Source: Prevotella sp. (GTDB lineage Bacteria; Bacteroidota; Bacteroidia; Bacteroidales; Bacteroidaceae). Taken from it: a stretch of DNA of 64,000 nucleotides. The stretch lies in assembly GCA_017524385.1 (NCBI GenBank), contig JAFWSS010000258.1, positions 40,627 through 104,626 on the forward strand, in the 5' to 3' direction. A program made the position numbers and the translations under genes. Below the pieces are notes generated by a model. The model ran no database searches, was not told where the DNA came from, and was given only the letters and a program-made list of their open reading frames with translations. Of the stretch, positions 7,049 through 30,243 are shown piece after piece (position 1 is the stretch's first letter; each line of letters opens with the position of its first letter).

Positions 7049-7164
7049 TGGTTTTATTGATTTGTAACTTGAAACACCATCTCTCACCAAAGGTGCAAAC
7101 AAGTGAGAGGAAAACGAAAGGATGAAGGACAAAAGAAAGGAGCCTATTATATCATTGAAGCATA

Positions 7165-8295: not shown

Positions 8296-8309
8296 TTCCT
8301 GTTTTTTTG

Positions 8310-8317
8310 CAAAGGTA
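8310..8317 (-). promoter_or_regulatory. Promoter -7 box for ATP-grasp/CapA module
   Basis: On the minus strand TACCTTTG (8317 to 8310) matches TAnnTTTG, 14 bp ahead of the ATG at 8295. The -33 region is weak. It is divergent from the promoter at 8422-8429. Confidence 0.6.
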
Positions 8318-8421
8318 ATACAAATCCCGTGAAACACATACGATAGTCTGAGAAAAGAGCAAAAAAAAAACTGTTATAGAACAAAAAACACAATTTTCTT
8401 CGACTTTTCATGTTTTTTCTA

Positions 8422-10949: not shown

Positions 10950-10958
10950 GCCGAGGAT

Positions 10959-11870
10959 ATGCCCCAAAATGTGAAGATCGTGAACATGGCAGGCGGCCTG
11001 GGCAACCAAATGTTCCAGTATGCCTTTGCGACGATGCTTCAGCAGCATTTTCCCAATGACACGGTGATGGTAGACACCCACCACTACAACACACTGTTTT
11101 TCAAGGAATTCGGCTCCGTCAACCTTCACAACGGATATGAGATCAACCATATCTTTTCCAACGCGACTCTCCCTGTGGCCGGCAAGCCTGACCTTCGCAG
11201 AGTGACGAGATACATCCCCAACTACGTGCTCTCCCGAGTGGCACGCCGCTTCCTCCCACGCCTGTCCACGGAATATGTGGAGCCATTGAGCGAGAACTTC
11301 ACCCGTAACGACGCCGTGCTGCGCACCGGCGACTGCTACTATGAGGGCTATTGGCAGAGCCATTCCTATTACAAGGGTATGAAGCCACTGCTGCACCAAC
11401 TATTCACCCCGCCTCGCCCAAACGAATACAACTCCAAGATGACAGCCCTCATCGAGCGATGCGACAGCATAGGACTGCATGTGAGACGTGGCGATTACAA
11501 AAACGCCCCGGAATTCAACGGCATATGCACACCTGCATACTATAGGAAAGCCATTGACAAGGCGACTAACGACGGGCGCACACACACACTGTTCGTGTTC
11601 TCCAACGACATCGCATGGTGCCGCGAGAACATCCCAGCAATGTGCAAGGACCAAGAGGTCGTCTTTGTGGATGGGAACAAAGGCTCAGACAGTTGCTGGG
11701 ACATGTTTCTCATGACGCATTGCCGCCAATTGGTGATAGCCAACAGCACCTTCAGCTGGTGGGGAGCCTTTCTCAACCGGCGCGCAGAGCACATCTACGC
11801 ACCAACCACGTGGCTTTGGCGAAACTGCGACATCGACATCCTCGACCCTGAATGGGTAAGGGTGGAATGA
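10959..11870 (+). CDS. Alpha-1,2-fucosyltransferase (GT11)
   Basis: 303 residues. It has NMAGGLGNQMFQYAFATML at the start, the GT11 motif HVRRGDYKN near residue 170, which binds GDP-fucose, and NSTFSWWGAFLN near residue 265. All three blocks and the length are typical of bacterial GT11 enzymes. It would transfer L-fucose in alpha-1,2 linkage, usually to galactose. The GDP-fucose donor is made by manC, gmd and fcl 4-7 kb downstream in the same unit, which supports a fucosylated product. Such fucosylated surface glycans can resemble host blood-group structures; that property is inference here. Confidence 0.92.
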   Translation: MPQNVKIVNMAGGLGNQMFQYAFATMLQQHFPNDTVMVDTHHYNTLFFKEFGSVNLHNGYEINHIFSNATLPVAGKPDLRRVTRYIPNYVLSRVARRFLPRLSTEYVEPLSENFTRNDAVLRTGDCYYEGYWQSHSYYKGMKPLLHQLFTPPRPNEYNSKMTALIERCDSIGLHVRRGDYKNAPEFNGICTPAYYRKAIDKATNDGRTHTLFVFSNDIAWCRENIPAMCKDQEVVFVDGNKGSDSCWDMFLMTHCRQLVIANSTFSWWGAFLNRRAEHIYAPTTWLWRNCDIDILDPEWVRVE

Positions 11871-11946: not shown

Positions 11947-13170
11947 ATGAAGATACCCTTCTCTCCCCCATACGTCGACGACAGTGTTGTCAACGAAGTG
12001 GTTGATTCACTCCGCTCTGGATGGATCACCACCGGTCCCAAGGTAAAAGCACTCGAAGCCGAAGTCATGAAACTAACGGGCACCAAGGCCGCACTTGGCG
12101 TCAACTCCTGGACGTCAGGAACCATCATGATGCTGAGGTGGTTGGGACTGAAAGCCGACGACGAAGTCATCATACCAGCATACACCTACTGCGCCACTGC
12201 CATGGCTGTGATGTGGGCGGGCGGAAAGGTGGTGATGGTTGACTCTGGCGAAGACTTCAACATCTCCGTAGATGCCATCCGCAAAGCCATCACGCCTAAG
12301 ACAAAAGCCATCATCCCCGTCGATATCGGTGGATATCCATGCGACTACCCAGCCATCATGTCGCTGGTGAAAGAGCCTTCCATATGCCAGATGTACACAC
12401 CCGAAAATGATGTCCAATCACGGTTGGGACGCATACTGGTGCTCAGCGACTCCGCCCATTCACTGGGAGCATGGATCAACGGACACCACACAGGCAGTGA
12501 GAGCGACATCAACGTTTTCTCCCTTCACGCGGTGAAGAACATCACCACCGCAGAGGGAGGAATGATTTGCTTCAACCTGCCTGAGCCTTTCGACAACGAG
12601 CAACTTTACAAGCAAATGAGGCTGATGTCACTCAACTGCCAGACCAAGGACGCCTTCACCAAGAGCCAGGCAGGCGGTTGGCGCTATGACATCGTGGGAA
12701 AAGGGATGAAAGTCAACATGGCCGACATCAACGCCGCCATTGGCCTGGCTCAAATCAGGCAATACGACAAACTCCTTGCCGAGCGCAAACGCATCTTCAA
12801 GCGTTATGATGAAGCCTTTGCCGCTTGCGACTGGGCCATACTCCCCCCGTCGAAAAGCAGCACTTTCGAGTGTTCATACCACATATACCCATTACGCGTG
12901 AAAGGAGCCACCGAAGCACAACGGGATGCCATCATCAGCGAAGTGGCACGCAACGAAGTGGCAGTGAACGTGCATTTCGTCCCACTTCCACTGCTCACCT
13001 ATTACAAGGAACTGGGTTACAACATCGCCGACTACCCAAAAGCATACCAGCATTTCGAGCACGAAATCTCACTTCCTGTATATCCGCAACTCGACAACGA
13101 GAAAGTGGACATCGTCATCAAGGCGGTGAAGGAAGCCTATGAGAAGACGTTTGCCCGCCCGACCCGATGA
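11947..13170 (+). CDS. DegT/DnrJ/EryC1/StrS-family sugar aminotransferase
   Basis: 407 residues. MKIPFSPPYVDDSVVNEV and SGWITTGPKVKALE open the PLP fold. SDSAHSLGA holds the Asp that pairs with the PLP ring nitrogen, and FSLHAVKNITTAEGGMI contains the Schiff-base Lys in the usual HAxKNxTTxEGG context. It should aminate a keto nucleotide sugar using glutamate. It overlaps by 4 bp with a PglC-type phosphoglycosyl transferase gene, a pairing known from bacillosamine-like first sugars. No NDP-sugar dehydratase other than gmd is in the window, so the keto substrate must come from elsewhere or from an earlier part of the locus. Confidence 0.88.
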   Translation: MKIPFSPPYVDDSVVNEVVDSLRSGWITTGPKVKALEAEVMKLTGTKAALGVNSWTSGTIMMLRWLGLKADDEVIIPAYTYCATAMAVMWAGGKVVMVDSGEDFNISVDAIRKAITPKTKAIIPVDIGGYPCDYPAIMSLVKEPSICQMYTPENDVQSRLGRILVLSDSAHSLGAWINGHHTGSESDINVFSLHAVKNITTAEGGMICFNLPEPFDNEQLYKQMRLMSLNCQTKDAFTKSQAGGWRYDIVGKGMKVNMADINAAIGLAQIRQYDKLLAERKRIFKRYDEAFAACDWAILPPSKSSTFECSYHIYPLRVKGATEAQRDAIISEVARNEVAVNVHFVPLPLLTYYKELGYNIADYPKAYQHFEHEISLPVYPQLDNEKVDIVIKAVKEAYEKTFARPTR

Positions 13171-13757
13171 AACGATTCTTCGACATCCTGCTCTCCAGCC
13201 TGGGACTGACTGTCTTCTCCCCGCTGTTCCTTTTCATCTACGTCGTCATCAGATGCGGCAGCAAGGGACCGGGATTCTATTCCCAGAAACGCATAGGCAA
13301 GGATGGCAGGGCATTCAATCTTTACAAGTTCCGCACCATGCGGACAGGCTCCGACCGCGACACTCTCATCACCGTAGGCGGCCACGACACAAGGATTACG
13401 AAGGAAGGTTATTATCTGAGGAAATACAAGTTAGACGAACTCCCTCAGTTGTGGAATGTGATCATCGGCGACATGAGCCTTGTGGGTCCACGTCCCGAAG
13501 TGGAGAAATATGTGAGGCTTTACACACCGGAGCAACGGGTGGTGCTGAGTGTTCGTCCAGGCATCACCGACTATGCCTCGATAGAATTCTCCGACGAGAA
13601 CGAGATTCTGGGACAGTCGAGCGACCCCGAACGAATGTACATCGAGGTTATCATGCCCAAGAAGATTGAGTTCAACCTGAAATACATCAACAACCCCACC
13701 CTCACCGAGTATTTCAAAATCATCCTGCTGACCTTCAAAAAAATCATCAATCATTAA
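13167..13757 (+). CDS. Monotopic phosphoglycosyl transferase (initiating sugar transferase)
   Basis: 196 residues, about the size of PglC. A single N-terminal hydrophobic hairpin (DILLSSLGLTVFSPLFLFIY) is followed by QKRIGKDGRAFNLYKFRTM, KYKLDELPQLWNVI with the Asp-Glu catalytic dyad, and GDMSLVGPRPEVEKY. These are the Bac_transf family blocks. The enzyme would move a sugar 1-phosphate from a UDP-sugar to undecaprenyl phosphate, starting repeat-unit assembly. Its ATGA overlap with the aminotransferase suggests the first residue is an amino sugar. It lacks the multi-TM N-terminal region of WbaP/WcaJ-type enzymes. Confidence 0.9.
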   Translation: MKRFFDILLSSLGLTVFSPLFLFIYVVIRCGSKGPGFYSQKRIGKDGRAFNLYKFRTMRTGSDRDTLITVGGHDTRITKEGYYLRKYKLDELPQLWNVIIGDMSLVGPRPEVEKYVRLYTPEQRVVLSVRPGITDYASIEFSDENEILGQSSDPERMYIEVIMPKKIEFNLKYINNPTLTEYFKIILLTFKKIINH

Positions 13758-13853: not shown

Positions 13854-14972
13854 ATGGAAGAGAAAAAATACATAGAGTTTCTGAAATTCTGCCTTAGCGG
13901 AAAAGACATGCCGGAATGTGTCAAAGACATCAAATGGAGCGAACTACTCGTATTCGCCAAGAAACAAACGATACAAGGCGTATATGCGAGGACCGTTCTT
14001 GCCCAAGACGGGAAAGTGCGCCCCGAGGACTTTCTTGGCAACAAACCCTCCGACGACGATGTCATGGAATGGGTGTTTGAATCACATATATTGAGAAAAC
14101 TCAACGAGACGGTTTTCAGTCGTGCCGACAAAGCATCAGAATGGTTTCTTGAGAATGGTTTTCCCAACTGCATCCTCAAAGGGCAGGGCAATGCGCTGAT
14201 GTATCCCGACCCTTACCTGCGGGCGCCTGGAGACATCGACATATGGCTTGACGGTGGCAGGGAAAAGATATTGGAGTTCACCACCAAATATTATAACAGG
14301 GAGCCGACCAACCTCCATGTCGACTTCCCCATGTTCAAGGAAGTAACCGTGGAGGTCCATTTCCGACCGTCTTACATGCTCAACCCATTCGTCGACAAGA
14401 AGTTGAGGAAATATTTCGACGAGGTGAAGGATTCACAATTCGGCAATTTGGCGAGAACCCATGACGGGAAATACAAGTTTTTCGTGCCTACCAATGAGTT
14501 CAACGCCTTCTACCAACTCCTGCACATGTATCGCCACGTCCAAAACAGCGGCATCGGCCTTAGGCAGATCATCGACTATTACTACCTGCTGAAAAAATGC
14601 AAGGAAGAGGGTATGAGTGAAAAGGACAAGAAGGAATTTGCCACACGTATCAAGAAATTCAAGATGGTGAATTTCACCAGCGCCATCATGTACATCGTGC
14701 ACAACGTCCTGGGGTTGGAAGAGGACTGCCTGCTGTTTGAACCCAACGAGAAGGAAGGCGAGTTCCTGCTCAGCGAGGTGTTGCTTATGGGCAATTTTGG
14801 AAAAGCAGAAACCCGCAAGGCCGCACTAGACACCACGAAAGGCCACTTCAAAAGGTTTCTCATCTATGAGAAATACAACCTCAGGGTGCTGAGCCATTAT
14901 CCCAGCGAAATCATCTGGCGCCCTTTGCGCGACCTGAAACTCAGTTGGAAAACCCATCATAAGGACGACTAG
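13854..14972 (+). CDS. Nucleotidyltransferase-fold protein (NTP_transf_5 family)
   Basis: 372 residues. FPNCILKGQGNALMYPDPYL and RAPGDIDIWLDG contain the GxG...DxD signature of the minimal nucleotidyltransferase fold (near residues 105-130), and VTVEVHFRPSYML supplies the third acidic position. This pattern matches the NTP_transf_5 family (PF14907-like) often found in capsule and lipopolysaccharide loci of Bacteroidetes. No soluble donor is known to me for this family; a role in transferring a phospho-substituent or nucleotidyl group to a sugar is inference. It follows a 96-bp gap after the phosphoglycosyl transferase and precedes manC. Confidence 0.72.
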   Translation: MEEKKYIEFLKFCLSGKDMPECVKDIKWSELLVFAKKQTIQGVYARTVLAQDGKVRPEDFLGNKPSDDDVMEWVFESHILRKLNETVFSRADKASEWFLENGFPNCILKGQGNALMYPDPYLRAPGDIDIWLDGGREKILEFTTKYYNREPTNLHVDFPMFKEVTVEVHFRPSYMLNPFVDKKLRKYFDEVKDSQFGNLARTHDGKYKFFVPTNEFNAFYQLLHMYRHVQNSGIGLRQIIDYYYLLKKCKEEGMSEKDKKEFATRIKKFKMVNFTSAIMYIVHNVLGLEEDCLLFEPNEKEGEFLLSEVLLMGNFGKAETRKAALDTTKGHFKRFLIYEKYNLRVLSHYPSEIIWRPLRDLKLSWKTHHKDD

Positions 14973-15028: not shown

Positions 15029-16096
15029 ATGGCATCATCAAGAAACCACCTCGTCATCATGGCAGGCGGCGTCGGCAGCCGCTTCTGGCCCATGAGCACT
15101 GAAGAAAGGCCCAAGCAGTTCATCGACGTGCTTGGTGTGGGGCGCACGCTGCTCCAACTCACCTACGACCGCTTCGAGGGAGTCTGCGACTCATCTAACG
15201 TATGGATTGTCACCAACGTGAGATACGCCGACATCGTGCATGAGCAACTGCCAGAAGTTCCCATCAACCACATCTTGCTGGAGCCATGCCGCCGCAACAC
15301 GGCTCCGTGCATCGCATATGTCAGTTGGCGCATCAAGAAAGAAGACCCTAAGGCAAACGTTGTGGTGACGCCAAGCGACCACGTGGTGACCAATGGCAGC
15401 GAATTCCGAAGGGTTGTCACAGCATGCATGAAATTCACCGGCGAGACCGACTCCATCATCACACTTGGAATGAAGCCCACACGGCCAGAGACCGGCTATG
15501 GATACATACAAGCCGACCTCACAACCAGTTCGGCACGCAACAAGGAAATATTCCGGGTAGACTCCTTCCGCGAGAAGCCTGATGCCGCCACAGCAGAGAA
15601 ATACATCCGCAACAAGAGTTATTTCTGGAATGCAGGCATTTTCATCTGGAGCGTGAACACCATCGTCAATGCATTCCGGGTATACAAGCCAGCGATGGCC
15701 AAACTCTTCGAGAACATGCTTCCGATATACGGGACAGAAGAAGAGCAACCGATGATAGACAAGCACTATCCTGAATGCGAAAGCATCTCCGTCGATTATG
15801 CCATCATGGAGAAAGCCTCTGAGATTTTCGTCTGCCCGGCCGACTTCGGTTGGAGCGACTTGGGCACATGGGGTTCCTTGATGGCCCAGACGGGCAAGGA
15901 CATCTATGGCAACTGCAAGATAGGAAACGACATTTCGCTTTTCGACACACACAATTGCATCATCCACACCACGGAAGAGCGCAAAGTAGTGGTGCAAGGT
16001 CTTGACGGATATATCATAGCCGAGAAAGACAACACCTTGCTCATTTGCAAACTCAGCGAAGAGCAAAAAATCAAACAATTCACCGAACAATTATGA
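15029..16096 (+). CDS. manC: Mannose-1-phosphate guanylyltransferase
   Basis: 355 residues. [20 protein letters not shown] followed by KQF is the pyrophosphorylase GTP-binding signature. [10 protein letters not shown] and [13 protein letters not shown] continue the family pattern, and [10 protein letters not shown] and VDYAIMEKA match the mannose-1-phosphate site. The protein stops near the end of the guanylyltransferase domain and lacks the phosphomannose isomerase cupin of the longer bifunctional ManC. It makes GDP-mannose from GTP and mannose 1-phosphate. The stop overlaps the gmd start by 4 bp, and manC-gmd-fcl form the GDP-L-fucose path. Phosphomannomutase and mannose isomerase are not in the window. 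Confidence 0.93.
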
Positions 16097-17172
16097 CAAA
16101 CTTATCAAGAAAGACAGCACTCATCACAGGCATCACCGGGCAAGACGGTTCCTACCTGGCGGAATTCCTCATTGAGAAAGGTTACGAAGTGCATGGCCTG
16201 CTTCGCCGTTCATCATCGTTCAACACAGGAAGGATAGAGCATCTCTATCTCGACGAATGGGTGAGAGACATGAAGAAACAACGTCTGGTGGAACTGCACT
16301 GGGCCGACATGACCGACTCCTCCTCTCTCATCCGCATCATCGGAGAGGTGAAGCCCACAGAAATATACAACCTCGCAGCCCAGAGCCATGTAAAAGTGTC
16401 TTTCGACGTACCGGAATACACCGCCGACACCGACGCCGTCGGAGTGTTGCGCCTCCTTGAGGCCGTGCGCATCTGCGGACTGGAGAAGGAATGCCGCATC
16501 TACCAGGCTTCCACATCTGAATTGTATGGCAAGGTGCAGGAAGTGCCCCAAAAGGAGACAACGCCTTTCTACCCACGTTCGCCCTATGCCGTTGCGAAAC
16601 TCTATGGCTACTGGATCATGAAGAACTACCGCGAGAGTTACGGCATGTACTGTTGCAACGGCATCCTCTTCAACCATGAGAGCGAGCGCAGGGGCGAAAA
16701 CTTCGTCACACGAAAAATCACGCTGGCAGCAGCACGCATCGTACAAGGACACCAGGACAAACTATACCTGGGCAACCTCAACTCCCTTCGCGACTGGGGG
16801 TACGCCCGTGATTACGTGGAGTGCATGTGGCTCATCCTGCAGCAACCCGAACCCGATGATTTCGTCATCGCCACAGGCGAATACCACACCGTAAGGGAGT
16901 TTGCCACACTTGCCTTCGAGGCGGTGGGCATCCAACTGTCTTGGGAAGGCGAGGGAGTAAATGAAAAAGGCATCGACACCGCAACCGGGCGTGTCATCGT
17001 GGAGGTTGACCCCAAATACTTCCGCCCGGCAGAGGTGGACCAATTGCTGGGCGACCCCTCAAAAGCCCGCCAGCAACTTGGATGGAACCCCTGCAAGACA
17101 CCATTCCGTGAATTGGTGAAAATCATGGTCGACCACGATATGAAATTCGTGAACAAACTGTATAAGAAATAA
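16093..17172 (+). CDS. gmd: GDP-mannose 4,6-dehydratase
   Basis: About 359 residues. [19 protein letters not shown] is the NADP-binding GxxGxx[18 protein letters not shown] is the Gmd-specific substrate/NADP loop, [11 protein letters not shown] holds the Thr/Ser and Glu catalytic residues, and [15 protein letters not shown] gives YxxxK. It converts GDP-D-mannose to GDP-4-keto-6-deoxymannose. The ATG at 16093 overlaps the manC stop; the frame is open further upstream into manC but that part has no family similarity. Next to fcl, it feeds the GT11 fucosyltransferase of this locus. Confidence 0.96.
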
Positions 17173-17187
17173 GGAAAACCCATCAAT

Positions 17188-18276
17188 ATGGCACTTGACA
17201 AGAAATCCAAGATCTATGTAGCAGGGCACCGGGGCCTCGTGGGCTCCGCCATCTGGTCCAATCTCCTCTCCCGCGGCTACACCAACTTGATTGGCAGAAC
17301 ACACAAAGAACTCGACTTGCTCGATGCAACGGCGGTGAAGCAATTCTTCGATGCAGAGCGCCCCGACGCCGTCGTACTTGCTGCCGCCCATGTGGGTGGC
17401 ATCATGGCCAACTTGAAATACCGAGCCGACTTCATCTACCAAAACCTTCAGATACAGCAAAACGTCATTGGAGAGAGTTTCCGTCATGATGTCGGCAAAT
17501 TGCTCTTCCTTGGCTCCACTTGCATCTATCCACGAATGGCTCCTCAACCCATTCATGAAGAGGCATTGCTCACTTCCGAGTTGGAATACACCAACGAGCC
17601 ATATGCCATAGCCAAGATAGCCGGATTGAAGATGTGCGAGAGTTTCGCCATCCAATACGGTTGCAACTACGTTGCTGTCATGCCCACCAACCTATATGGC
17701 CCCAATGACAATTTCCATCTGGAGAGAAGCCATGTGCTGCCTGCCATGATCCGCAAGGTGCACCTTGCCAAATGCCTCAACGAAGGCGACTGGGCCGCAG
17801 TGAGGCGGGACCTTGACCAACGCCCCGTTGAAGGTGTGGACGGCAGCAGCACAGAGAAAGAGGTGCTTGCCGTCCTGGGCAAATACGGCATCACAGCCGA
17901 AGCCGTCACCCTGTGGGGAACAGGTTCTCCGCTTCGCGAATTCCTATGGAGCGAGGATATGGCAGACGCCAGTGCATACGTGCTGCTGAATGTCAATTTT
18001 TCCGACACTTACGACCCTCAATCGGCAGAGATTCGCAACTGCCACATCAACATCGGTTCAGGCAAGGAACTGACCATTCGTGAGTTGGCAACCAAAGTGG
18101 TGGAAGCCACAGGGTTCAAGGGAGAGTTGCGTTGGGATGCGACAAAGCCCGACGGCACTCCACGCAAACTAACTGATGTCAGCAAGATACATCGCCTTGG
18201 ATGGCATCACAAGGTTGAAATCGACGAAGGGGTTCGCCGCTTGCGCCAATGGTACGTCAACGACCAAAACCACTGA
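17188..18276 (+). CDS. fcl: GDP-L-fucose synthase
   Basis: 362 residues. KIYVAGHRGLVGSAIW is the Rossmann NADPH-binding motif, FLGSTCIYP holds the catalytic Ser, and YAIAKIAGLKMCES the Tyr-x3-Lys pair. PTNLYGPNDNFHLERSHVLP is a strong GDP-fucose synthase block. The enzyme epimerises at C3 and C5 and reduces the 4-keto group to give GDP-L-fucose. A stretch of about 40 residues after residue 195 (rich in D, E and R) is an insertion relative to E. coli WcaG and is usual in Bacteroidetes homologues. The gene follows gmd by 15 bp. Confidence 0.96.
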   Translation: MALDKKSKIYVAGHRGLVGSAIWSNLLSRGYTNLIGRTHKELDLLDATAVKQFFDAERPDAVVLAAAHVGGIMANLKYRADFIYQNLQIQQNVIGESFRHDVGKLLFLGSTCIYPRMAPQPIHEEALLTSELEYTNEPYAIAKIAGLKMCESFAIQYGCNYVAVMPTNLYGPNDNFHLERSHVLPAMIRKVHLAKCLNEGDWAAVRRDLDQRPVEGVDGSSTEKEVLAVLGKYGITAEAVTLWGTGSPLREFLWSEDMADASAYVLLNVNFSDTYDPQSAEIRNCHINIGSGKELTIRELATKVVEATGFKGELRWDATKPDGTPRKLTDVSKIHRLGWHHKVEIDEGVRRLRQWYVNDQNH

Positions 18277-18448
18277 CCTCATGACACTTATCATGGGGAA
18301 GATGTCGCATGGAGGCATCACGGTGTGAACTCATCTACGCGGGAGGCAGTTGCCATGCGGCATTTGTCCCCGTTTTTTCTTTTTATCACCCCTTGGAAAA
18401 GTCACAAAGGAAGATTGGGAAAATAGAAGGAACACCTCTCATTTCATC

Positions 18449-20050
18449 ATGCAAGTAGCAGAATATTCCAGGACAAAGAATTCCTTGCTCAACATGGCGA
18501 CGGGCTTGTTCGGACAAGTCACCCTCACCTTGTTGCGCTTTGCCTCCCGCACGGTGTTCATCTATGTGCTGGGAGCCGAATACCTGGGTATTGGCGGCTT
18601 GTTCAGCAACATACTCACCCTGCTCTCCCTTTCCGAATTGGGCGTAGGCTCTGCCATCATCTTCAAGCTATACAAGCCGATGGCGTTGAAAGACGAGCGG
18701 CGTGTCAAGATGTTGGTGAAATTTTTCAGACGAGCCTACACAGCCATCGGGTTCATTTTCCTTTTGCTTGGCATCTTGATGATACCACTACTTCCCGTGC
18801 TCATCAAGAACTACCACAAATTGGACGAATTGGGCATCAACGCTCCCTTGGTATTCTTCCTCTACCTGATGCAGAGCGTGAGCACTTACCTGTTCTCCGC
18901 CTATCGCACCGTCGTCGTCAAGACGGCCATGAAAAGATACATCCTCCACATGGTGGGGTTCATCTTCAACGTCATCACCGTGGGGACTCAAATAGCCATC
19001 TTGCTTTGTCCGTTAGGCTTCATTTCAGGCAAACCGGAAAAATTCATGCTTTATGTCGGCGTGGTCATCATCCTGGGAATCTTCCAGAACTGGACATGCG
19101 CCATCATCGCCACCAAGATGTATCCTTGGGCCTTCAAGAAAGAGAAGGAAAGCCTGCCACGAGAGGAGCAATGGGGAATTGTGAAAGACTGCGCCGCGCT
19201 GATGGTTTACAAGGTGAACGGCGTGGTGCTCAAGGCCACCGACAACCTGGTGATAAGTTATTTCCTTGGCCTTCGATGGGTGGGCCTCTATTCCAACTAC
19301 TTTCTCATCTACTTGACCATCAACCAATTTGTCAAGCATTTCCATAGTGGTGTGAAAGAGAGCATGGGCAACGCTTATGCCAAGGAAAGCATCGAGAAGA
19401 ACTATTTGATCTTTGAGACGATGAACTTTCTCACCATCTTGCTCAAAGGCACGGCCTGCATAGGTATCGCCATTTGTTCCAACGAATTGATCGACCTATG
19501 GGTGGGAAAGGAATACATCATCCCACAGCCGCTGCCACTCTTGATGGGAATAGAGAGCCTCTTCTTTGGACTTAAGGTCAACCTTGGACAAGCGAGAAAC
19601 ATCTCCGGAGCCTTCAGGCAAGCGTGGTATCGACCTCTCATGGGCATCTTCATCAACATTTTCACCTCTATCATCCTTTGTTACCATATCGGCATCTGTG
19701 GCGTCATCATAGGCACCATAACAGCCGACATACTGACAAACTTCCTCATCGACCCCTTCATCATCCACAAATACAGTTACAAAGGATTCAAGCCTGCATC
19801 CTATTATTACAAGAAGAACCTCACCTACATGCTCATATTGGCCGTGGTGGGAATCGCCGACTACCTGCTCTGCAGGGTGATGGTCACGGGGCTGCCCGTC
19901 GTCGACCTGGTGCTGCATGCCTTGATCTGCCTCGTCAGCGTGCCTGTCACCCTCTTGCTCATCTACAAGAAAACCGATGTGTGCCAATACCTTTTTGAAA
20001 GAGCGAAGTCTTCGAAATGGATACAGCGTCATAAACATAAACGATCATGA
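18449..20050 (+). CDS. Polysaccharide flippase (Wzx/MATE-like)
   Basis: About 533 residues with twelve or more hydrophobic segments. The start MQVAEYSRTKNSLLNMATG leads into GLFGQVTLTLLRFASRTVFI and YLGIGGLFSNILTLLSLSEL, the first-helix pattern of polysaccharide-transport (PST) flippases. The enzyme would move undecaprenyl-PP-linked repeat units to the periplasm. The ATG at 18449 was chosen because the 33 extra upstream residues (from 18350) are not membrane-like and lie in an intergenic stretch. A 172-bp gap separates it from fcl, with no promoter box seen. It ends in an ATGA overlap with the first ATP-grasp gene. Confidence 0.88.
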   Translation: MQVAEYSRTKNSLLNMATGLFGQVTLTLLRFASRTVFIYVLGAEYLGIGGLFSNILTLLSLSELGVGSAIIFKLYKPMALKDERRVKMLVKFFRRAYTAIGFIFLLLGILMIPLLPVLIKNYHKLDELGINAPLVFFLYLMQSVSTYLFSAYRTVVVKTAMKRYILHMVGFIFNVITVGTQIAILLCPLGFISGKPEKFMLYVGVVIILGIFQNWTCAIIATKMYPWAFKKEKESLPREEQWGIVKDCAALMVYKVNGVVLKATDNLVISYFLGLRWVGLYSNYFLIYLTINQFVKHFHSGVKESMGNAYAKESIEKNYLIFETMNFLTILLKGTACIGIAICSNELIDLWVGKEYIIPQPLPLLMGIESLFFGLKVNLGQARNISGAFRQAWYRPLMGIFINIFTSIILCYHIGICGVIIGTITADILTNFLIDPFIIHKYSYKGFKPASYYYKKNLTYMLILAVVGIADYLLCRVMVTGLPVVDLVLHALICLVSVPVTLLLIYKKTDVCQYLFERAKSSKWIQRHKHKRS

Positions 20051-21237
20051 GACAGAAAGTCATCATTGTTGGTTGGGGATACACCTCACGCCTCTTTCTC
20101 ATACGCTCGTTGGGAGAGGCAGGATGCGAGGTTGTCGTCATCGTTTTAGAAAACATCAAGACACCCATTTTCGACATCTACAGCAAATATGTCAGCGAGG
20201 TTGTCAGATGCTCCAACAAGAACGACCTGGTGAACATATTGCTGGAACAATGCAAGTCCTCGGAGGGAAAGCCTATCATCATCCCAAACAACGACATGTC
20301 GGTTTCCATCATAGACATGCACCACGACGAACTCGTCGAGCATTTCCACATCCCACACATACACCACGAGCAAGGTGCCATCACCGCCTGGATGAACAAA
20401 GATAGACAAAAGGCGCTTGCCCAAAAGCTGGGATTGAACATCGCCCACTCGCTGGGCATCATACACATGCAGGAGCGACGATACGACATCCCCCCCGGAC
20501 TGACTTACCCATGCTTCACCAAGACACGCGAATACATCCCAGGCTATAAGCACACGCTCCATCACTGCGAAAACGAGGATGAACTGCGACAAGGCCTCAA
20601 CCATCTCACCACCATCGTCTCCAACGCCACCATCCTGGTGGAGGAATACAAGGAAATAGAGAGGGAATATGCCGTTGTCGGGGTCTCCGACGGCGAACAC
20701 GTCATCATCCCGGGCATCATCGAAATCCTGCAAATGTCGGAAGGAAGCGGAAAGGGTGTGGCCATACAAGGCAAGGTGACTCCCGTCGACGGCTATGAGG
20801 ACTTGATTGAGCGCTTCTCACAATTCGTGCGTGAAGTGGGCCTGGTGGGACTTTTCGACATCGACTTTTACATCAGCGGAGGGAAGGTGTATTTCGGCGA
20901 ACTCAACCTGCGCATAGGAGGTTCAGCCTCAGCCGTGTGGAAACTCGGCGTCAACCTGCCCCTCATCATGCTGAAGCATTTCAGAGGCGAAAGCATCGAG
21001 GGAATGCAGACAAGCATCACGAAAACCGCCACTTTCGTCAACGAGCGCACAGGCATCGACAACTGGTACGTCGGCTACTACGACACGAAAAAATACAGGC
21101 AACTACTGGCTTCCGACATCAGTTTCATCAAAGACGACAAAGACCCCATGCCGTGGAAAAGATTCAAGCGCTTTGAAAGATTCATGCACTTGAAACGAAC
21201 CATCAAAAAACTCATGCCATGGAAGAAATCAGAATAA
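20047..21237 (+). CDS. ATP-grasp ligase of a polysaccharide locus (copy 1)
   Basis: 396 residues. An N-terminal Rossmann-like pre-ATP-grasp domain (KVIIVGWGYTSRLFLIRSL) is followed by the ATP-grasp core: YPCFTKTREYI with the first ATP-binding Lys, ILVEEYKEIEREYAVVGV with the adenine-contact Glu, and the C-terminal GLFDIDFYISGGKVYFGELN with the metal-binding E-x-N. The substrate is not evident; relatives form amide or peptide bonds with an acyl-phosphate intermediate. It is a clear paralogue of the protein at 21818-23047, and the two flank a GNAT gene. It overlaps both neighbours, so all three are probably translated together. Confidence 0.8.
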   Translation: MRQKVIIVGWGYTSRLFLIRSLGEAGCEVVVIVLENIKTPIFDIYSKYVSEVVRCSNKNDLVNILLEQCKSSEGKPIIIPNNDMSVSIIDMHHDELVEHFHIPHIHHEQGAITAWMNKDRQKALAQKLGLNIAHSLGIIHMQERRYDIPPGLTYPCFTKTREYIPGYKHTLHHCENEDELRQGLNHLTTIVSNATILVEEYKEIEREYAVVGVSDGEHVIIPGIIEILQMSEGSGKGVAIQGKVTPVDGYEDLIERFSQFVREVGLVGLFDIDFYISGGKVYFGELNLRIGGSASAVWKLGVNLPLIMLKHFRGESIEGMQTSITKTATFVNERTGIDNWYVGYYDTKKYRQLLASDISFIKDDKDPMPWKRFKRFERFMHLKRTIKKLMPWKKSE

Positions 21238-21815
21238 TGGAAAAGCCCGACTGGGTGTCGTGGGACGAGATACACGACGTGTTGTGGGCGGCACACAAGA
21301 GAAACAGGGAAGCCGGGATGGATATGAAATATCCCAGCCTTCCTGGTGACCAATTGAAAGAACTCTTGAAAGACGGGGGACAATGCTTCGTGGCACTCGA
21401 AGGACGTAAAGTGGTGGCTACCGGCTCCTACAGGATATTCAAACGCAGGAGGTGGTATAATCCCAAGCGCGAAAAGATGATTTCGCTGCTGTTAGATGGC
21501 ATTCTCCCCGAATACGAAGGAAAAGGCATCTACTCGAAACTCTACCATTATCGCGAGGAGCACCTGAAGAGTCTCGGTTTCAACCTGATAGACATGGATA
21601 CCGCCGAAAACAACGCAAATATCCAGAAAGTGTTTCTCAAACAAGGTTTCAGGTTTGTGGACTTCGAATCCTACCAAACCCCGCATTATTCCATCATGAT
21701 GGCGAAATGGCTCAACGGCTGCCCTTACAGCAAATGGGAATGCTGGTGGAGATTCCATTGGCGGAAACTCAGGACAAAAGCCATCTGGAAACCCGGACAG
21801 GTAAGAAGATTTTGA
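21219..21815 (+). CDS. GNAT-family N-acetyltransferase
   Basis: 198 residues. The middle has QCFVALEGRKVVATGSYRI (beta 2-3), LLLDGILPEYEGKGIYSKLY with the Q/R-x-x-G-x-G/A type acetyl-CoA loop (YEGKGIYS), and ENNANIQKVFLKQGFRFVD, the usual N...GF end of the GNAT fold. It should transfer an acyl group from acyl-CoA to an amine. The ATG at 21219 overlaps the upstream ATP-grasp gene by 19 bp; an ATG at 21237 inside TAATG is an alternative. The stop lies 2 bp before the second ATP-grasp gene. Placed between two ligases, it may acylate an amino sugar or an amino-acid substituent. Confidence 0.78.
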   Translation: MEEIRIMEKPDWVSWDEIHDVLWAAHKRNREAGMDMKYPSLPGDQLKELLKDGGQCFVALEGRKVVATGSYRIFKRRRWYNPKREKMISLLLDGILPEYEGKGIYSKLYHYREEHLKSLGFNLIDMDTAENNANIQKVFLKQGFRFVDFESYQTPHYSIMMAKWLNGCPYSKWECWWRFHWRKLRTKAIWKPGQVRRF

Positions 21816-21817
21816 AA

Positions 21818-23047
21818 ATGTCACCGGCAACACCCGACAACACCCCACAGCGGCCCTTGGCCATCGTGACGGGCAAGAACTACGCCTCCCGTCTTGGCAT
21901 GGTGCGTGCGGCAGGCATGGCCGGGTGCGACGTGGTGGTGGTGCAGACACAGTTGAAATGGATGACCGACACCCCCATCGACACCTACAGCAAATATGTC
22001 GTGGAAACCAAGGTGGCTCACCAACCCGATGCCCAACTCATCATGGAAACCATCATGGGCTACCGGGGCTGCAGGGAAAACATCATCCTCCTGCCCACCG
22101 ACGACTGGACGGCATCGCTGATTGACACACATCTCGACATTCTCAGCCCGCATTTCATCACACCCCATGTCAACCACCAGCAAGGCGCCATACTCCACAT
22201 CATGGACAAGATGCACCAGAAAAAACTGGCACGTGCCGCCGGTGCCAACGTGGCAGAAGGATGGCTCTGCCGTTACGCAGAGGGAGGGCACCACATACCC
22301 GAAGGCATAACCTACCCTTGCTTCACCAAACCCGTGGAATGCTACACGGGAGCCCTGAAGCCCTTCCTCAAACGCTGCGACAACAGGGAACAGTTGGAAG
22401 AGACGCTGAGAGCCATAGCCAAATACAAGAAAGACATCCTTGTGGAAGAGTACCACGCCATCGCCAACGAGTATGCCGTGCTGGGAGTCGCCTTCGGCAA
22501 CACCTGCATCATGCCAGCATTCATACAATTGGACAGCGACAGGGAGGGAGTGGCTGCCACGGGGAGGGTGCGCCCCATCAGCCAACTCCCCGGCATGGCC
22601 GAGGTGCTGGGGCGCTTCATGGAAAAGACCCAATTCACAGGACTCTTCGACATCGACCTCTATGAAAGCGAGGGGAAGGTGTACTTCAACGAACTCAACG
22701 CCCGTTTTGGCGCCAGCGGTTATGCCGTGACAAAAGGCGTCGTCAACCTGCCGGGAGTGTTCATCAGTTATTTCCTTAAAGACCTTAAGGACCCTAAAGA
22801 CCTTAAAGACCTTGACGTCTCTGACGACTTCCCTGTGCAAACCTTCGCCAACGAGAAGACCTGCTTTGACATGCTCTACGCAGGCATGATCAACTATTGG
22901 CAATACAAACGCTCGCTCAACAAAGCCGACATCCGTTTCATCAAGGACGGCGACGACCCAGGTCCGTCGCGCATGGCCTCCAAAGACGAACGGCTGCTCT
23001 TCCTCAGGTCCATCGTGTGGAGCATCAGGAACAGGTCAAGGAAATAG
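21818..23047 (+). CDS. ATP-grasp ligase of a polysaccharide locus (copy 2)
   Basis: About 409 residues. The domain order equals that of the protein at 20047-21237, with shared blocks IDTYSKYVVET, YPCFTKPVECY, ILVEEYHAIANEYAVLGVA and GLFDIDLYESEGKVYFNELN. The ATG at 21818 lies 2 bp after the GNAT stop; the frame is open upstream inside the GNAT gene but that part is not family-like. Near residue 320 a low-complexity stretch of Leu/Pro-Lys-Asp triplets is inserted where copy 1 has an ordinary loop, encoded by a 9-bp tandem repeat. The ligation substrate is unknown. The duplication suggests two successive or alternative ligation steps. Confidence 0.8.
   Translation: MSPATPDNTPQRPLAIVTGKNYASRLGMVRAAGMAGCDVVVVQTQLKWMTDTPIDTYSKYVVETKVAHQPDAQLIMETIMGYRGCRENIILLPTDDWTASLIDTHLDILSPHFITPHVNHQQGAILHIMDKMHQKKLARAAGANVAEGWLCRYAEGGHHIPEGITYPCFTKPVECYTGALKPFLKRCDNREQLEETLRAIAKYKKDILVEEYHAIANEYAVLGVAFGNTCIMPAFIQLDSDREGVAATGRVRPISQLPGMAEVLGRFMEKTQFTGLFDIDLYESEGKVYFNELNARFGASGYAVTKGVVNLPGVFISYFLKDLKDPKDLKDLDVSDDFPVQTFANEKTCFDMLYAGMINYWQYKRSLNKADIRFIKDGDDPGPSRMASKDERLLFLRSIVWSIRNRSRK
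22774..22815 (+). repeat. In-frame 9-bp tandem repeat
   Basis: Four and a half units of CCTTAAAGA-like sequence lie inside the second ATP-grasp gene and encode repeated L/P-K-D triplets. Since the unit is a multiple of three, gain or loss of units would change loop length without a frameshift. Confidence 0.85.
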
Positions 23048-23053
23048 TTTCTC

Positions 23054-23266
23054 TCTAACTCCCCTTTAACTCCCCTTTAACTCCGGAAAGAAGTGAACAC
23101 ATGTCCCTTTAACTCCTTTTTAACTCCCCTTTAACTCCCCTTTAACTCCTATAAGAGACTCCTATAAGATACTCCTCATAATTTCAAAAACAATCATATG
23201 TCCCTTTAACTCCCCTTTAACTCCCCTTTAACTCCTCTTTAACTCCTAAAAGATACTCCCCTTTAA
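23054..23266. repeat. CTTTAACTCC tandem-repeat spacer
   Basis: The 233-bp gap between the ATP-grasp and glf genes consists mostly of a pyrimidine-rich unit (CTTTAACTCC plus one or two extra C/T), in two or three blocks, separated by TATAAGA-type segments. About a dozen copies are present. There is no open frame or promoter box. It is not a CRISPR array, since units abut with no unique spacers. It resembles short dispersed direct repeats of Bacteroidetes intergenic DNA. Confidence 0.8.
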
Positions 23267-23280
23267 TCAACAAGCAACCT

Positions 23281-24408
23281 ATGAAAAAATTCGACTACCT
23301 CATCGTGGGTTCCGGCCTCTTCGGGGCCACCTTCGCCCACCTCGCCCACAAGAAAGGCAAGCGATGCCTGGTAATAGACAAGCGTCCACACCTTGGCGGC
23401 AACGTGTATTGCGAAAAAGTGGAGGGAATCAACGTGCACGTTTATGGCGCACACATCTTCCACACCTCCAACAAGGATGTGTGGGACTTCGTCAACGCCA
23501 TCACACCTTTCAACCGATATACCAACTCACCCGTGGCCAACTACAACGGTCACCTCTACAACCTGCCCTTCAACATGAACACCTTCTACCAGATGTGGGG
23601 TGTCACCACCCCTGAGGCCGCCAAGGCCAAGATAGAGGAGCAGCGCCAAGAGACCTTGGAGGCCATGAAAGCGGCAGGCATCACAGAGCCACGCAACCTG
23701 GAGGAGCAGGCACTCACCCTCATCGGCCGCGACATCTACGAACGGCTCATCAAAGGCTACACCGAGAAGCAATGGGGGCGGAAATGCACCGACCTGCCCG
23801 CCTTCATCATCAGGCGGCTTCCTGTCCGACTTGTCTTCGACAACAACTATTTCAACGACTCCTACCAAGGCATTCCCATCGGTGGCTACAACCTGCTCAT
23901 CAATGGACTGCTCGACGGCGTGGACTGCTTCGTGGGCACAGACTTCTTCGATGACCGGCAGCATTTCGAGGCATTGGCGGAAAAAGTGGTTTACACAGGC
24001 AAGATTGACGAATATTTCAACTATGAACTGGGACAACTCAACTACCGCACGGTGAGATTTGAACAAGAGACCCTCGACACGCCCAACTACCAAGGCAACG
24101 CCGTGGTGAACTACACCGACGCCGTCACGCCCTACACCCGCATCATCGAGCACAAGCATTTCGAGATGTTCGGCCAACAGGTGTACGACTGCCCCAAGAC
24201 CGTCGTCTCACGCGAATACTCCACAGAGTGGCAAGCAGGGATGGAACCCTACTATCCCGTGAACGACGAGCGAAACAACACATTGGCCGACCAATACAGG
24301 GCAATGGCCGCCGCACGTCAAGACGTCATCTTCGGTGGTCGCCTGGCAGAATACAAATATTACGACATGGCTCCCATCATCGAAAAGGTGATGAGCCTCG
24401 ACATCTAA
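23281..24408 (+). CDS. glf: UDP-galactopyranose mutase
   Basis: 375 residues. YLIVGSGLFGATFAHLAHK is the FAD dinucleotide-binding motif, followed by VIDKRPHLGGNVY and VHVYGAHIFHTSN, the mutase-specific His loop. YTEKQWGRKCTDLPAFIIRR carries substrate-binding residues (Trp, Arg), and YYPVNDERN near the end is also typical. It interconverts UDP-galactopyranose and UDP-galactofuranose. It is the only nucleotide-sugar enzyme for galactofuranose seen, so the polymer probably contains Galf. A galactofuranosyltransferase is not assignable by sequence among the GT2/GT4 genes. Confidence 0.95.
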   Translation: MKKFDYLIVGSGLFGATFAHLAHKKGKRCLVIDKRPHLGGNVYCEKVEGINVHVYGAHIFHTSNKDVWDFVNAITPFNRYTNSPVANYNGHLYNLPFNMNTFYQMWGVTTPEAAKAKIEEQRQETLEAMKAAGITEPRNLEEQALTLIGRDIYERLIKGYTEKQWGRKCTDLPAFIIRRLPVRLVFDNNYFNDSYQGIPIGGYNLLINGLLDGVDCFVGTDFFDDRQHFEALAEKVVYTGKIDEYFNYELGQLNYRTVRFEQETLDTPNYQGNAVVNYTDAVTPYTRIIEHKHFEMFGQQVYDCPKTVVSREYSTEWQAGMEPYYPVNDERNNTLADQYRAMAAARQDVIFGGRLAEYKYYDMAPIIEKVMSLDI

Positions 24409-24418
24409 ACACCATCCC

Positions 24419-24847
24419 ATGGAATTGCTCAAGAGATTGTATGCCAAGTTCCGACACCTGATACTTTACGGCATCATCGGAAGTTTCACCGCCTCACTCG
24501 ACTTCCTCGTATTCACCTTGCTAACCCGGTCGCTGGGTGTCAACTACTTGGTTGCCAACTGCATCTCCGTATTAGTGGGCATCACCACCAGTTTCTACCT
24601 CAACCGCACCTATAATTTCAAGGTAAGCGACAAGACGGCGCAGCGATTCAGCATCTTTCTTGCTGTGGGACTCACCGGTCTGCTGATGAGCAATCTCATA
24701 CTATGGGTGGGCATCGACAAGATGCATCTCAACGAATCCATCACCAAACTGGCAAGCATTGTCCTGGTGGTGTTCTTCCAGTTCCTCTTCAACAAGTTCA
24801 TCACCTTCAGGGTGAAAGACAACGACACCAAACCTGATAATCACTAA
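24419..24847 (+). CDS. GtrA-family membrane protein
   Basis: 142 residues with four hydrophobic segments. The start FRHLILYGIIGSFTASLDFL and the end VVFFQFLFNKFITFR, with FYLNRTYNFK in the middle, are the characteristic GtrA ends. GtrA proteins are thought to flip or present polyprenyl-phosphate-linked sugars for use at the periplasmic face. The next two genes fit that chain: a dolichyl-phosphate-mannose-synthase-like GT2 to charge the lipid, and a multi-pass GT-C transferase to use it. Together they look like a three-gene periplasmic glycosylation set. Confidence 0.88.
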   Translation: MELLKRLYAKFRHLILYGIIGSFTASLDFLVFTLLTRSLGVNYLVANCISVLVGITTSFYLNRTYNFKVSDKTAQRFSIFLAVGLTGLLMSNLILWVGIDKMHLNESITKLASIVLVVFFQFLFNKFITFRVKDNDTKPDNH

Positions 24848-24865
24848 CCCCCAAACATCTATCCT

Positions 24866-25612
24866 ATGGAAAAGTTTTATTTTGTCATGCCAGCATACAA
24901 CGAGTCGGCCAACATCGAGACCACCATCAAACAATGGTATCCCGTTGTGGAGCGCATCAACGGCATGGAAGACTGCGAGGCCGTACTGGCCATCGCCAAC
25001 GACGGCAGCAAAGACAACACCTACGAGGTGATGACCGCTTTGAAGGCCAAAGGCGGCTTCGACCATTTCGAGCCCCTTACGAAGAAGAATGGCGGCCATG
25101 GGCAGACCGTGCTCCACCTCTACCGCCACGCCATCGCCAATGGCGCCGACTATGTGTTCCAGACCGACTCCGACGGCCAGACCGACCCGGAAGAGTTCTG
25201 GCAGATGTTCGAGCACCGTCACGACTATGATTTCCAAATCGGCTACCGCAAAGGGCGCCAGGATGGTTCCAGCCGCGTTTTCGTGACAAAGACGCTGCGC
25301 CTGGTGGTGTGGCTGATGTTCCACGAATGGGTGACCGATGCCAACACCCCGTTCCGTCTGATGCAGCGCGACAAGTTGCAGGCCATCATGGATGTCATAC
25401 CTGAAGACTACGACCTGTGCAACGTGGCTATTGCCGCCATCGCCGTGAAATGGAAATATGCCATCAAGTTTTATGAAATCACCTTCAAGCCCCGTCAGGG
25501 TGGTGTCAACTCCATCAATATGAAGCGCATCTTCAAGATTGGTTGGAAAGCCTTGGGCGACTTCCGCAAAATCAACGCCAACCTGAAGAACAAATCCCCC
25601 AAGCACGACTGA
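24866..25612 (+). CDS. Family 2 glycosyltransferase, polyprenyl-phosphate sugar synthase-like
   Basis: 248 residues. YFVMPAYNESANIETTI and LAIANDGSKDNTYEV open the GT-A fold; YVFQTDSDGQTDPEEFW gives the DxDxQ metal and base region typical of dolichyl-phosphate-mannose-synthase-like GT2 enzymes, and NTPFRLMQRDKL follows. No C-terminal membrane helices are present. It would load a single sugar from a nucleotide donor onto undecaprenyl phosphate. Its position between GtrA and a GT-C membrane protein, separated from the latter by 1 bp, supports this. The sugar is unknown. Confidence 0.85.
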   Translation: MEKFYFVMPAYNESANIETTIKQWYPVVERINGMEDCEAVLAIANDGSKDNTYEVMTALKAKGGFDHFEPLTKKNGGHGQTVLHLYRHAIANGADYVFQTDSDGQTDPEEFWQMFEHRHDYDFQIGYRKGRQDGSSRVFVTKTLRLVVWLMFHEWVTDANTPFRLMQRDKLQAIMDVIPEDYDLCNVAIAAIAVKWKYAIKFYEITFKPRQGGVNSINMKRIFKIGWKALGDFRKINANLKNKSPKHD

Positions 25613-25613
25613 C

Positions 25614-27248
25614 ATGGAAAGCAGGAAGCCTATCACGCTCACCCCCACCACAGCGTCATACTATTGGTTGCTGGGAGTGTTTCTCTTATGGACGCTCGTT
25701 GGACTGTTCCCCTTCGAACTCACCTTTGAAGGCGATTCCTTGCGCATCATCGCAGGCTGTTCCGTCATGTACAACCAAGGATGGGCGGTACCACCCGAAG
25801 TATCCTATCAATACGGGATGCAACCCGCCATCATCTACCTCATCGTGGGCGTGAAGCACCTGTTGCCATTCCTCAGTTGCAACACCATCTACAGCCTGAT
25901 ATCGGCATTGGCGGCATTGGCTGCCATTCCCCTTGCAGTGGCTTTCGTGCACAGGGTGACAGGGATGAGCAAGACACTCATCCTTTTCGCACTCATCCTG
26001 CTACCCGAGACCTACGCGCTGAGCACCTATCCCAATTCCTCATCGTTCTCCTACGCCCTCGCACTATGGGCGTTTCTTCTCATCATGAGGGAGGCTCCTT
26101 TCTGGCAACCACTTGCCATCATGTGCATCGCCACCATCTTCCGCATCGACATCATCATCATCTATCCTGTCATCTTCCTTCTCTTTCTCCATCGGGGGAC
26201 GAGTCTCAAGAAAAGCATTGTATTGTCGGTGGTGGCAGCCTTTGCCGTCGTCGTATTCATGCTGGTGGCATACACCCTGCTCCAAGCCAACCCGTTCAAG
26301 ACCCTTCAGGCAGCAAAGACCATGAACGACAATGGCAAGTTGCTACAGATGGGGCTGATAGCCATCTTCTCCTACTACACCATTGTCAATTTCATCCTCG
26401 TACCCATCGGCATCGTCTGCGTGTCACGCAAGAAGCAATTCATCATGCTGCTCATCGCGTTGCTGCCCATGGTACTCATCCATTATTTCTACCGTCTCAA
26501 CGGTGGAGCGGCAAAGCATTACCTCTACCTGCTACCCTTCATCGCCATCCTCACCAGCCATGCCATTCACTACCTGATGGCATTGGGCAAGCGACACAAG
26601 GCGTTGGGCTATGCGATGGTTGTTGCCTTGGCGGCCTACTACGTCGTCTCACTAAGGTTTGACTTCCCCGACAAGCCCTGGCGCAACACCGAGGACTGCG
26701 TGTCCAAGTTAGGCCCCAACCTCAGCCTATACAAGGATGCCAACAGTCCCCGACATTGGCAGTTGGGCATAGGCACCAGCCTGGGATTCTTCACCGAAGA
26801 CGAGTTGATGGTCTATTCCGGGCATTTGTTCTATCCTTTCTACATCCACAAGGTGAAGAGCCGCCAAAAGGACCACATCCACGAGGTGAAAGCCTATCTC
26901 GACAAGAACGCCCCGAATCAATACGCCGTCGTGGCTCTCACATGGACCGACCTCTCGCTATATCCCTCCGTGCTGTTTGAAGAAGGCTACAAATATGAAG
27001 ATCTCCCCAACCGGTCGTTTAAGATGAACAACGGCAACCACGACGTGGTATTGCTGGCAACCGAGATGGAGAACGACGAGAAAAACATCAACAAGGTGCT
27101 CAGCAACATCAGGAGCAACCCCAAACTGGATGGCATGCCCGTGTATGTCATCACCCAGATGGAATCCTTCCATCATCCCCTCGACAGGCTGTGTGAAAAG
27201 CAAAGATGCCGCAAACTGATGCAAGGAGTCTACGAAGTGACACCTTAG
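25614..27248 (+). CDS. Multi-pass GT-C-type glycosyltransferase
   Basis: 544 residues with about ten to twelve hydrophobic segments in the first 350, then a soluble C-terminal domain of roughly 180. The first periplasmic loop has FELTFEGDSLRIIAG, where an acidic pair is expected as catalytic base in GT-C enzymes (ArnT/PMT type). QYGMQPAIIYLIVG matches the following helix. It should use a polyprenyl-phosphate sugar and transfer it at the periplasmic face. The upstream GT2 and GtrA genes provide the logical partners. Remote similarity only; the exact GT family number is not assigned. Confidence 0.7.
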   Translation: MESRKPITLTPTTASYYWLLGVFLLWTLVGLFPFELTFEGDSLRIIAGCSVMYNQGWAVPPEVSYQYGMQPAIIYLIVGVKHLLPFLSCNTIYSLISALAALAAIPLAVAFVHRVTGMSKTLILFALILLPETYALSTYPNSSSFSYALALWAFLLIMREAPFWQPLAIMCIATIFRIDIIIIYPVIFLLFLHRGTSLKKSIVLSVVAAFAVVVFMLVAYTLLQANPFKTLQAAKTMNDNGKLLQMGLIAIFSYYTIVNFILVPIGIVCVSRKKQFIMLLIALLPMVLIHYFYRLNGGAAKHYLYLLPFIAILTSHAIHYLMALGKRHKALGYAMVVALAAYYVVSLRFDFPDKPWRNTEDCVSKLGPNLSLYKDANSPRHWQLGIGTSLGFFTEDELMVYSGHLFYPFYIHKVKSRQKDHIHEVKAYLDKNAPNQYAVVALTWTDLSLYPSVLFEEGYKYEDLPNRSFKMNNGNHDVVLLATEMENDEKNINKVLSNIRSNPKLDGMPVYVITQMESFHHPLDRLCEKQRCRKLMQGVYEVTP

Positions 27249-29496: not shown

Positions 29497-30243
29497 ATGG
29501 ACAAACTCATCAAAAAGGCCAAGGAGGTGCTGGCCAACCAGCCTTTTCTCTACCGACTGGCGGGCATCGTCTTCGGTCCCATCACCCGTCACCGTGAACG
29601 AGTGGAAAAAGCACAAAAGGCCAAATACTTCCACGCACACGCCTTGGAAGCCCTCAAAGCCTTCGTCGATTGCATGGAAGCAGGAGGTTTCAAATACACG
29701 CTCGCTTTCGGTTCCATACTGGGAGCCATCCGCGAACACGGCTTCATCAAGCACGACATCGACATCGACACCTCCATGTGGATTGACGACTTCAGCCCGG
29801 AATTGGTGACGGCACTCGAAAAGGCAGGGTTCACCTGGCTCTTCAGCAACATGGTGGACGAAGGGCGCCTTGGCCGCGAGGACACCTTCGAATACAATGG
29901 CGTGAAAATAGACATCTTCTATTTCTACCCCGCCATCGACACCCTTCCCTATTGCTGCGACTTCTTACACATGAAGGAAAACCAATTCATGGCAAGAAGG
30001 ATAGAGGTGCCCTACACCCGCGGAAGGAAGAAGACACGTTTCGAAGACATCGAGGTCTATATCCCCGAAAACGCCGAAGAGATTTGCACATTCAGATACG
30101 GTCCCAACTACATGACGCCCGACCCAAATTGGAACTGGGTCAGCGAACGCAAGCACCTCGTGGAGTGGAAGGAGAAACTGGATGTCACCACACACAAGAA
30201 ATATCCCCACGGTCGGCCTGCCACACCACCGCAAAAGGAATGA
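29497..30243 (+). CDS. LicD-family protein
   Basis: 248 residues. YTLAFGSILGAIREHGFI, then KHDIDIDTSMW, is the LicD signature: GSxLGAxRxxGFIxxDxDxD, carrying the metal-binding Asp residues of a nucleotidyltransferase fold. VKIDIFYFYPAI gives the third acidic residue. LicD proteins attach phosphocholine or similar phospho-substituents, or are involved in phosphoryl transfer to glycans. No choline kinase or cytidylyltransferase is visible, so the donor is open. The stop overlaps the helicase start by 4 bp, an unusual coupling between polymer modification and nucleic-acid metabolism. Confidence 0.88.
   Translation: MDKLIKKAKEVLANQPFLYRLAGIVFGPITRHRERVEKAQKAKYFHAHALEALKAFVDCMEAGGFKYTLAFGSILGAIREHGFIKHDIDIDTSMWIDDFSPELVTALEKAGFTWLFSNMVDEGRLGREDTFEYNGVKIDIFYFYPAIDTLPYCCDFLHMKENQFMARRIEVPYTRGRKKTRFEDIEVYIPENAEEICTFRYGPNYMTPDPNWNWVSERKHLVEWKEKLDVTTHKKYPHGRPATPPQKE

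Follow-up and report, generated by a model that had tools for sequence, protein, structure and literature searches.

An ATP-grasp/GNAT/ATP-grasp gene trio as a candidate decoration cassette in a Prevotella polysaccharide operon

Two ATP-grasp ligases and an acyltransferase

The DNA analyzed here, referred to as the window, is a stretch of 64,000 nucleotides from contig JAFWSS010000258.1 of a Prevotella sp. genome (assembly GCA_017524385.1; estimated contamination of 6.56%), and our analysis considers a trio of genes on its forward strand that sits 3' of fcl in a polysaccharide operon. The first gene (20047-21237) encodes a probable carboxylate-amine ligase of 396 amino acids, termed here ATP-grasp 1, the second (21219-21815) a GNAT acyltransferase of 198 amino acids, and the third (21818-23047) ATP-grasp 2, of 409 amino acids when counted from its likely start at 21818. 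A longer frame for ATP-grasp 2 opens at 21707, and the longest open frames in the ligase matches, of 528 and 496 amino acids, are ATP-grasp 2 here and in the related genome G200, where they result from open sequence upstream. A first-pass annotation made from the letters alone had described a paralogous ATP-grasp pair around an N-acetyltransferase, with the three genes tightly coupled, and both points are confirmed, the ligases being 38% identical to each other. A scan for promoters and terminators returned fewer sites than in shuffled sequence.

The complete ATP-grasp fold was found in the window ligases. Loss of key ATP-grasp residues was looked for in an alignment, and the catalytic-type residues proved to be kept in all 14 relatives: K118, K159, E199, E207, D271, E285, N287 and R289 are identical in every one of the 14 aligned rows, and we take them to represent the ATP-binding lysines and the metal-site E-x-N. 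For the GNAT, both the fold and the family score agree with the assignment; its best sequence-profile matches in the PDB are the N-alpha-acetyltransferases Naa30 and Naa50, while the list ranked by Z is topped by RimI and Ard1. The coenzyme A loop of GNATs has the consensus Q/R-x-x-G-x-G/A, and among nine relatives the first position is Q or R in six and the fourth is G in eight.

Neither ligase matched the TupA-like Pfam family at an expectation value (E) of 0.001 or less. ATP-grasp 1 scored 23.9 bits with ATPgrasp_Ter (PF15632), below the curated cut-off of 29.1 bits, and ATP-grasp 2 was unlisted for this family, while the best score with the NCBIfam carbamoyl-phosphate-synthase-like group (PRK12767) was 40 bits, as compared to a curated cut-off of 271 bits. 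ATPgrasp_ST (PF14397) was not among the matches of either ligase; it is matched instead by the window at 7165-8337. This ATPgrasp_ST gene overlaps a PGA_cap gene by 4 base pairs (bp) on the reverse strand, inside the polysaccharide region (5909-8337). Among the matches listed for the genus, phylum and order samples described below, none joined a ligase of this kind to a GNAT or a transferase in one gene.

Linkage and divergence of the genes within one genus

To describe the distribution of the genes, we considered a genus sample of 299 genomes, mostly draft assemblies, with this genome included. Relatives of ATP-grasp 1 (E<=1e-20) were found in 26 genomes and relatives of the GNAT (E<=1e-10) in 13, with ligase and GNAT relatives lying no more than 4.5 kilobases (kb) apart in 10 genomes (Fisher p 9.6e-10, or about 6e-6 when near-identical loci are counted once). 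Eight genomes have a close ligase relative (E<=1e-60), each with the GNAT type no further than 4.5 kb away, and five gene orders are represented among them. The exact order ligase-GNAT-ligase occurs in three of the 299 genomes, namely this genome, G200 and G062, each time in the same operon. The trio is thus conserved beyond this strain, as had been asked of it, yet as a ligase-GNAT-ligase cassette it holds for three genomes sharing one operon, while elsewhere the enzymes stand in other orders: GNAT, PGA_cap, DUF4886, ligase, ligase in G019 and G182; GNAT, ligase, PGA_cap, ligase in G168; GNAT, ligase in G109; and, in G228, a GNAT some 4.5 kb upstream of a ligase. In the eight genomes, the trio-type genes lie amid surface-polymer-type genes, for example of the glycosyltransferase, PGA_cap, LicD or glycerophosphotransferase families. 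PGA_cap genes also adjoin the GNAT or the ligases in loci L014, L016 and L018.

At E<=1e-25, a ligase match was found in one of 395 genomes of a phylum sample and in two of 344 genomes of an order sample, this genome counted in both cases; it should be considered that these samples contain few genomes of the genus and that scoring was limited to at most five candidates in each genome. Among named genomes, a search gave a single relative, on contig CADADN010000006.1 of RUG13201, an uncultured Prevotellaceae bacterium. The cassette is rare outside one Prevotellaceae genus in the samples searched.

In a tree of 29 ligases, 14 close relatives form one clade (support 100/100), within which ATP-grasp 1 and ATP-grasp 2 fall into separate clades (support 100/98 and 100/99). 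Members of both clades come from this operon type and also from G019 and G182, where the operon is different; the duplication therefore predates the split of the operon types, both copies having been kept since, and the ligase pair is an old one that was retained as a pair.

Distant ligase relatives present another association. In five loci (L021:7769-12248, L022:7385-11851, L023:7025-11482, L026:6862-10123 and L031:5482-8731), they stand beside a gene of a BCCT (betaine/choline/carnitine) transporter cluster, whose identity was shown by Pfam for L021, and a gene for a 217-residue protein whose start is signal-like, this gene pair being enclosed by two ligases in L021 and L022. Such loci suggest that an imported quaternary-amine acid is ligated, or else that the decoration is related to choline.

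The three genes do not share one pattern of divergence. In the comparison with G062, synonymous sites are saturated in ATP-grasp 1 (proportion of synonymous differences, pS, 0.76) and the GNAT has a synonymous divergence (dS) of 1.94, as against 0.48-0.67 for 12 of the 13 other operon genes, ATP-grasp 2 among them (0.63), and 0.90 for the flippase. Identity to G062 drops at the start of ATP-grasp 1, from about 81% to 59%, and is back to about 86% at the start of ATP-grasp 2, the low stretch extending from the start of ATP-grasp 1 to the end of the GNAT. The signal is weaker in the comparison with G200, the nearest relative, with a dS of 0.54 for ATP-grasp 1 and 0.84 for the GNAT, and of 0.23 and 0.26 for the direct neighbors; the ratio of nonsynonymous to synonymous divergence is 0.14-0.17 for all three trio genes. 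As faster protein evolution alone would not raise synonymous divergence, the simplest reading of the G062 values is that ATP-grasp 1 and the GNAT appear to have been replaced together by a distant allele. Movement of the trio as one unit was rejected, as the divergence of ATP-grasp 2 follows that of the flanking genes. Of the first-pass view of the trio as one set, the close linkage stands, but the set is not one evolutionary unit, with ATP-grasp 1 and the GNAT diverging together and ATP-grasp 2 diverging with the operon.

Position in the operon and neighboring genes

The trio is an accessory cassette, as related genomes carry the backbone operon without it. G036, G085, G176 and G238 share the backbone from the aminotransferase gene through fcl but have no trio behind it, and the genus-wide searches with ATP-grasp 1 (E<=1e-20) and the GNAT (E<=1e-10) matched nothing in these four genomes. 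After fcl, G036 has two MBOAT acyltransferase genes where the trio sits in the window, G085 a gene for a 603-residue protein without a Pfam match and G176 a PGA_cap gene, with 1.5 to 4.9 kb of sequence covered past fcl in these three genomes. In G238, the gene directly after fcl is that for the membrane protein of the downstream block; this block is rearranged, and the flippase match is absent. The MBOAT pair in the place of the trio lies at L035:843-4769, with a gene for a 353-residue protein without a Pfam match between its two members.

The flanking genes, all on the forward strand, confirm the first-pass placement of the trio inside a polysaccharide operon. Upstream are genes for a Wzy-type polymerase, a GT4 protein and a GT11 protein, of the fucosyltransferase family (8695-11870), followed by a DegT-family aminotransferase (11947-13170), an initiating phosphoglycosyltransferase (Bac_transf, 13167-13757) and an NTP_transf_5 family protein (13854-14972). 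A manC-type mannose-1-phosphate guanylyltransferase (15029-16096), a gmd-type GDP-mannose 4,6-dehydratase (16093-17172) and an fcl-type GDP-L-fucose synthase (17188-18276), named from sequence alone without a family search, lead to a flippase (Wzx)-like membrane protein (18350-20050), which has no Pfam match and was named from its sequence and place. Downstream, the UDP-galactopyranose mutase gene glf (23281-24408; 382.8 bits, cut-off 303.75) precedes genes for a GtrA-like protein, a GT2 glycosyltransferase and a membrane protein without a Pfam match that recurs in the operon (24419-27248); a LicD-like protein (29497-30243) matches positions 4-41 only of its profile. The gap between ATP-grasp 2 and glf is filled by arrays of the 11-bp unit CCCTTTAACTC (23056-23246), and the length of the gap differs in the two relatives.

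The DegT protein was closest to Spr1654 (6ewj; E 2.8e-106, 359 bits), the next distinct sequence scoring 179 bits. In the accessible text of PMC5936713, Spr1654 is the aminotransferase assigned to synthesis of 2-acetamido-4-amino-2,4,6-trideoxygalactose (AATGal) for pneumococcal teichoic acid, and by this likeness we consider the DegT protein to be of the AATGal-synthase type. Given this closeness and the genes of the operon, AATGal is probably the first sugar of the repeat, with fucose and galactofuranose among its other components. Relatives of the AATGal-type aminotransferase were found in 42 of the 299 genus genomes. Together with the initiating transferase (11947-13757), this gene marks a possible zwitterionic-polysaccharide operon in a Prevotellaceae genus.

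A proposed role in polysaccharide decoration

Direct observation at this locus covers the genes, their folds, the kept residues, the linkage and the optional presence. By analogy with known systems, we propose that the trio serves as an accessory cassette for decorating a surface polysaccharide, making amide-linked, N-acylated substituents, and give this reading a probability of about 0.6; the activity, acceptor, donor and order of steps belong to the proposal, as does the co-exchange, which we infer from divergence. The operon would make a Wzx/Wzy-type polysaccharide starting with AATGal, which offers a free 4-amine, and containing fucose and galactofuranose. Each ATP-grasp enzyme would couple a small carboxylic acid to an amine by way of an acyl phosphate. 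The target acylated by the GNAT would be an amine too, the simplest candidate being the alpha-amino group of an amino acid newly attached by a ligase. The lipid-linked repeat would thereby gain, ahead of its export, one or two substituents that are amide-linked and N-acylated, and what varies in the structure would be determined by ATP-grasp 1 and the GNAT, given their apparent joint exchange. The amino-acid or peptide-like substituent, subsequently N-acylated, that the first-pass annotation had suggested is thus retained, with analogy as its support.

Known systems agree with parts of this proposal. PglB2 of Neisseria, an ATP-grasp/phosphoglycosyltransferase, is reported as responsible for the glyceramido amino sugar that starts a lipid-linked glycan (PMC11130364), and the window operon likewise contains aminotransferase and small phosphoglycosyltransferase genes; PglB2 is, however, one fused protein rather than two separate ligases and a GNAT, the comparison being by description only. 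In Shewanella oneidensis, an ATP-grasp gene belongs to the cluster sfmABCDE, required for normal flagellin glycan modification (PMC3765264), although this cluster acts on flagellin and not on a polysaccharide, its enzyme is of the ATP-grasp_4 type, and no flanking ligase pair is described in the accessible part of that report. The capsular polysaccharide A of Bacteroides fragilis is described as having AATGal made by WcfR and transferred to lipid by WcfS, with galactofuranose in the repeat (PMC13063421), much as predicted for the window operon, whereas no ATP-grasp enzyme or GNAT appears in the accessible text of that description. With PglB2, and with Cj1438 of Campylobacter considered below, amide formation by ATP-grasp enzymes on bacterial glycans is already known, and the claim of an undescribed system holds for the detail but not for the kind. 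A literature search over titles and abstract openings, with most subscription papers outside its reach, gave no account of this trio. A survey of amidoligases published in 2009 (Iyer and colleagues) may predict related systems.

Several observations weigh against the proposed decoration role and need to be considered. GNATs of the trio type occur without ligases in three of 13 genomes and adjoin a gene of a FabH-like group in two loci, so that the acyl donor of the GNAT may vary. The coenzyme A loop ends atypically, with Tyr or Leu last in nine of nine relatives. In the comparison with G200, three genes further upstream also have a dS of 0.52-0.74. The weakest step is AATGal itself as the acceptor, which we regard as doubtful. 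In five of the eight close-ligase genomes, the AATGal-type aminotransferase had no counterpart at E<=1e-60; an AATGal acceptor for the whole ligase family was rejected on these grounds, and it is possible in the three trio operons.

The same five genomes favor the opposite sense, in which a carboxylate on the sugar chain would be activated by the ligases and coupled to a small amine, the GNAT acylating another amine. This chemistry is reported as demonstrated for Cj1438 of Campylobacter jejuni, whose C-terminal ATP-grasp domain amidates glucuronic acid in the capsule (PMC11800379). Cj1438 thus resembles the proposal in forming an amide on a capsule sugar, but its domain is of the TupA-like family, which the window ligases do not match, and no uronic acid pathway gene was recognized among the scanned operon genes, no whole-genome search by name having been made. 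We therefore consider this sense unlikely. Also improbable, and slightly more so, is a small soluble molecule, for instance an N-acylated dipeptide, whose genes lie in the operon by chance or which is added later by another enzyme. The ligase fold is indeed common to the soluble-metabolite enzymes PurK, PylC and L-amino acid ligase, but all eight close-ligase genomes place the genes among surface-polymer-type genes, and the related slot in G036 is filled by MBOAT genes. That the trio has no joint function, having been assembled by recombination, would fit the variable region and the ligase-free GNATs, but is very improbable given the proximity of the GNAT in eight of eight genomes through five gene orders and the joint divergence of ATP-grasp 1 and the GNAT.

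If the decoration proposal is correct, the cassette would give a glycan function to an ATP-grasp family left unnamed by the curated models tried, and a variable amide group would be a simple change of polymer charge and antigenicity without a change of backbone. In gut Bacteroidales, phage sensitivity and immune recognition are influenced by the surface polysaccharides. Polysaccharides with AATGal, which is reported to give them their positive charge, have been studied for their effects on immunity (PMC10167101). A more speculative extension, which we hold to be rather unlikely, is that ATP-grasp 1 and the GNAT constitute a specificity module swapped between species while the partner ligase and backbone remain constant; masking of the AATGal amine with varied N-acylated amino-acid groups could then switch the charge state of a zwitterionic polymer, as a form of antigen variation. 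The linkage to one GNAT type and a ligase pair makes the chemistry directly testable.

A minor observation concerns the polysaccharide loci of the genus: in L014 (6434-7801), a cytidylyltransferase domain is fused to a GFO_IDH_MocA oxidoreductase domain, as identified by Pfam for this locus, and the corresponding protein cluster spans seven such loci (L014, L015, L021, L026, L029, L030 and L031).

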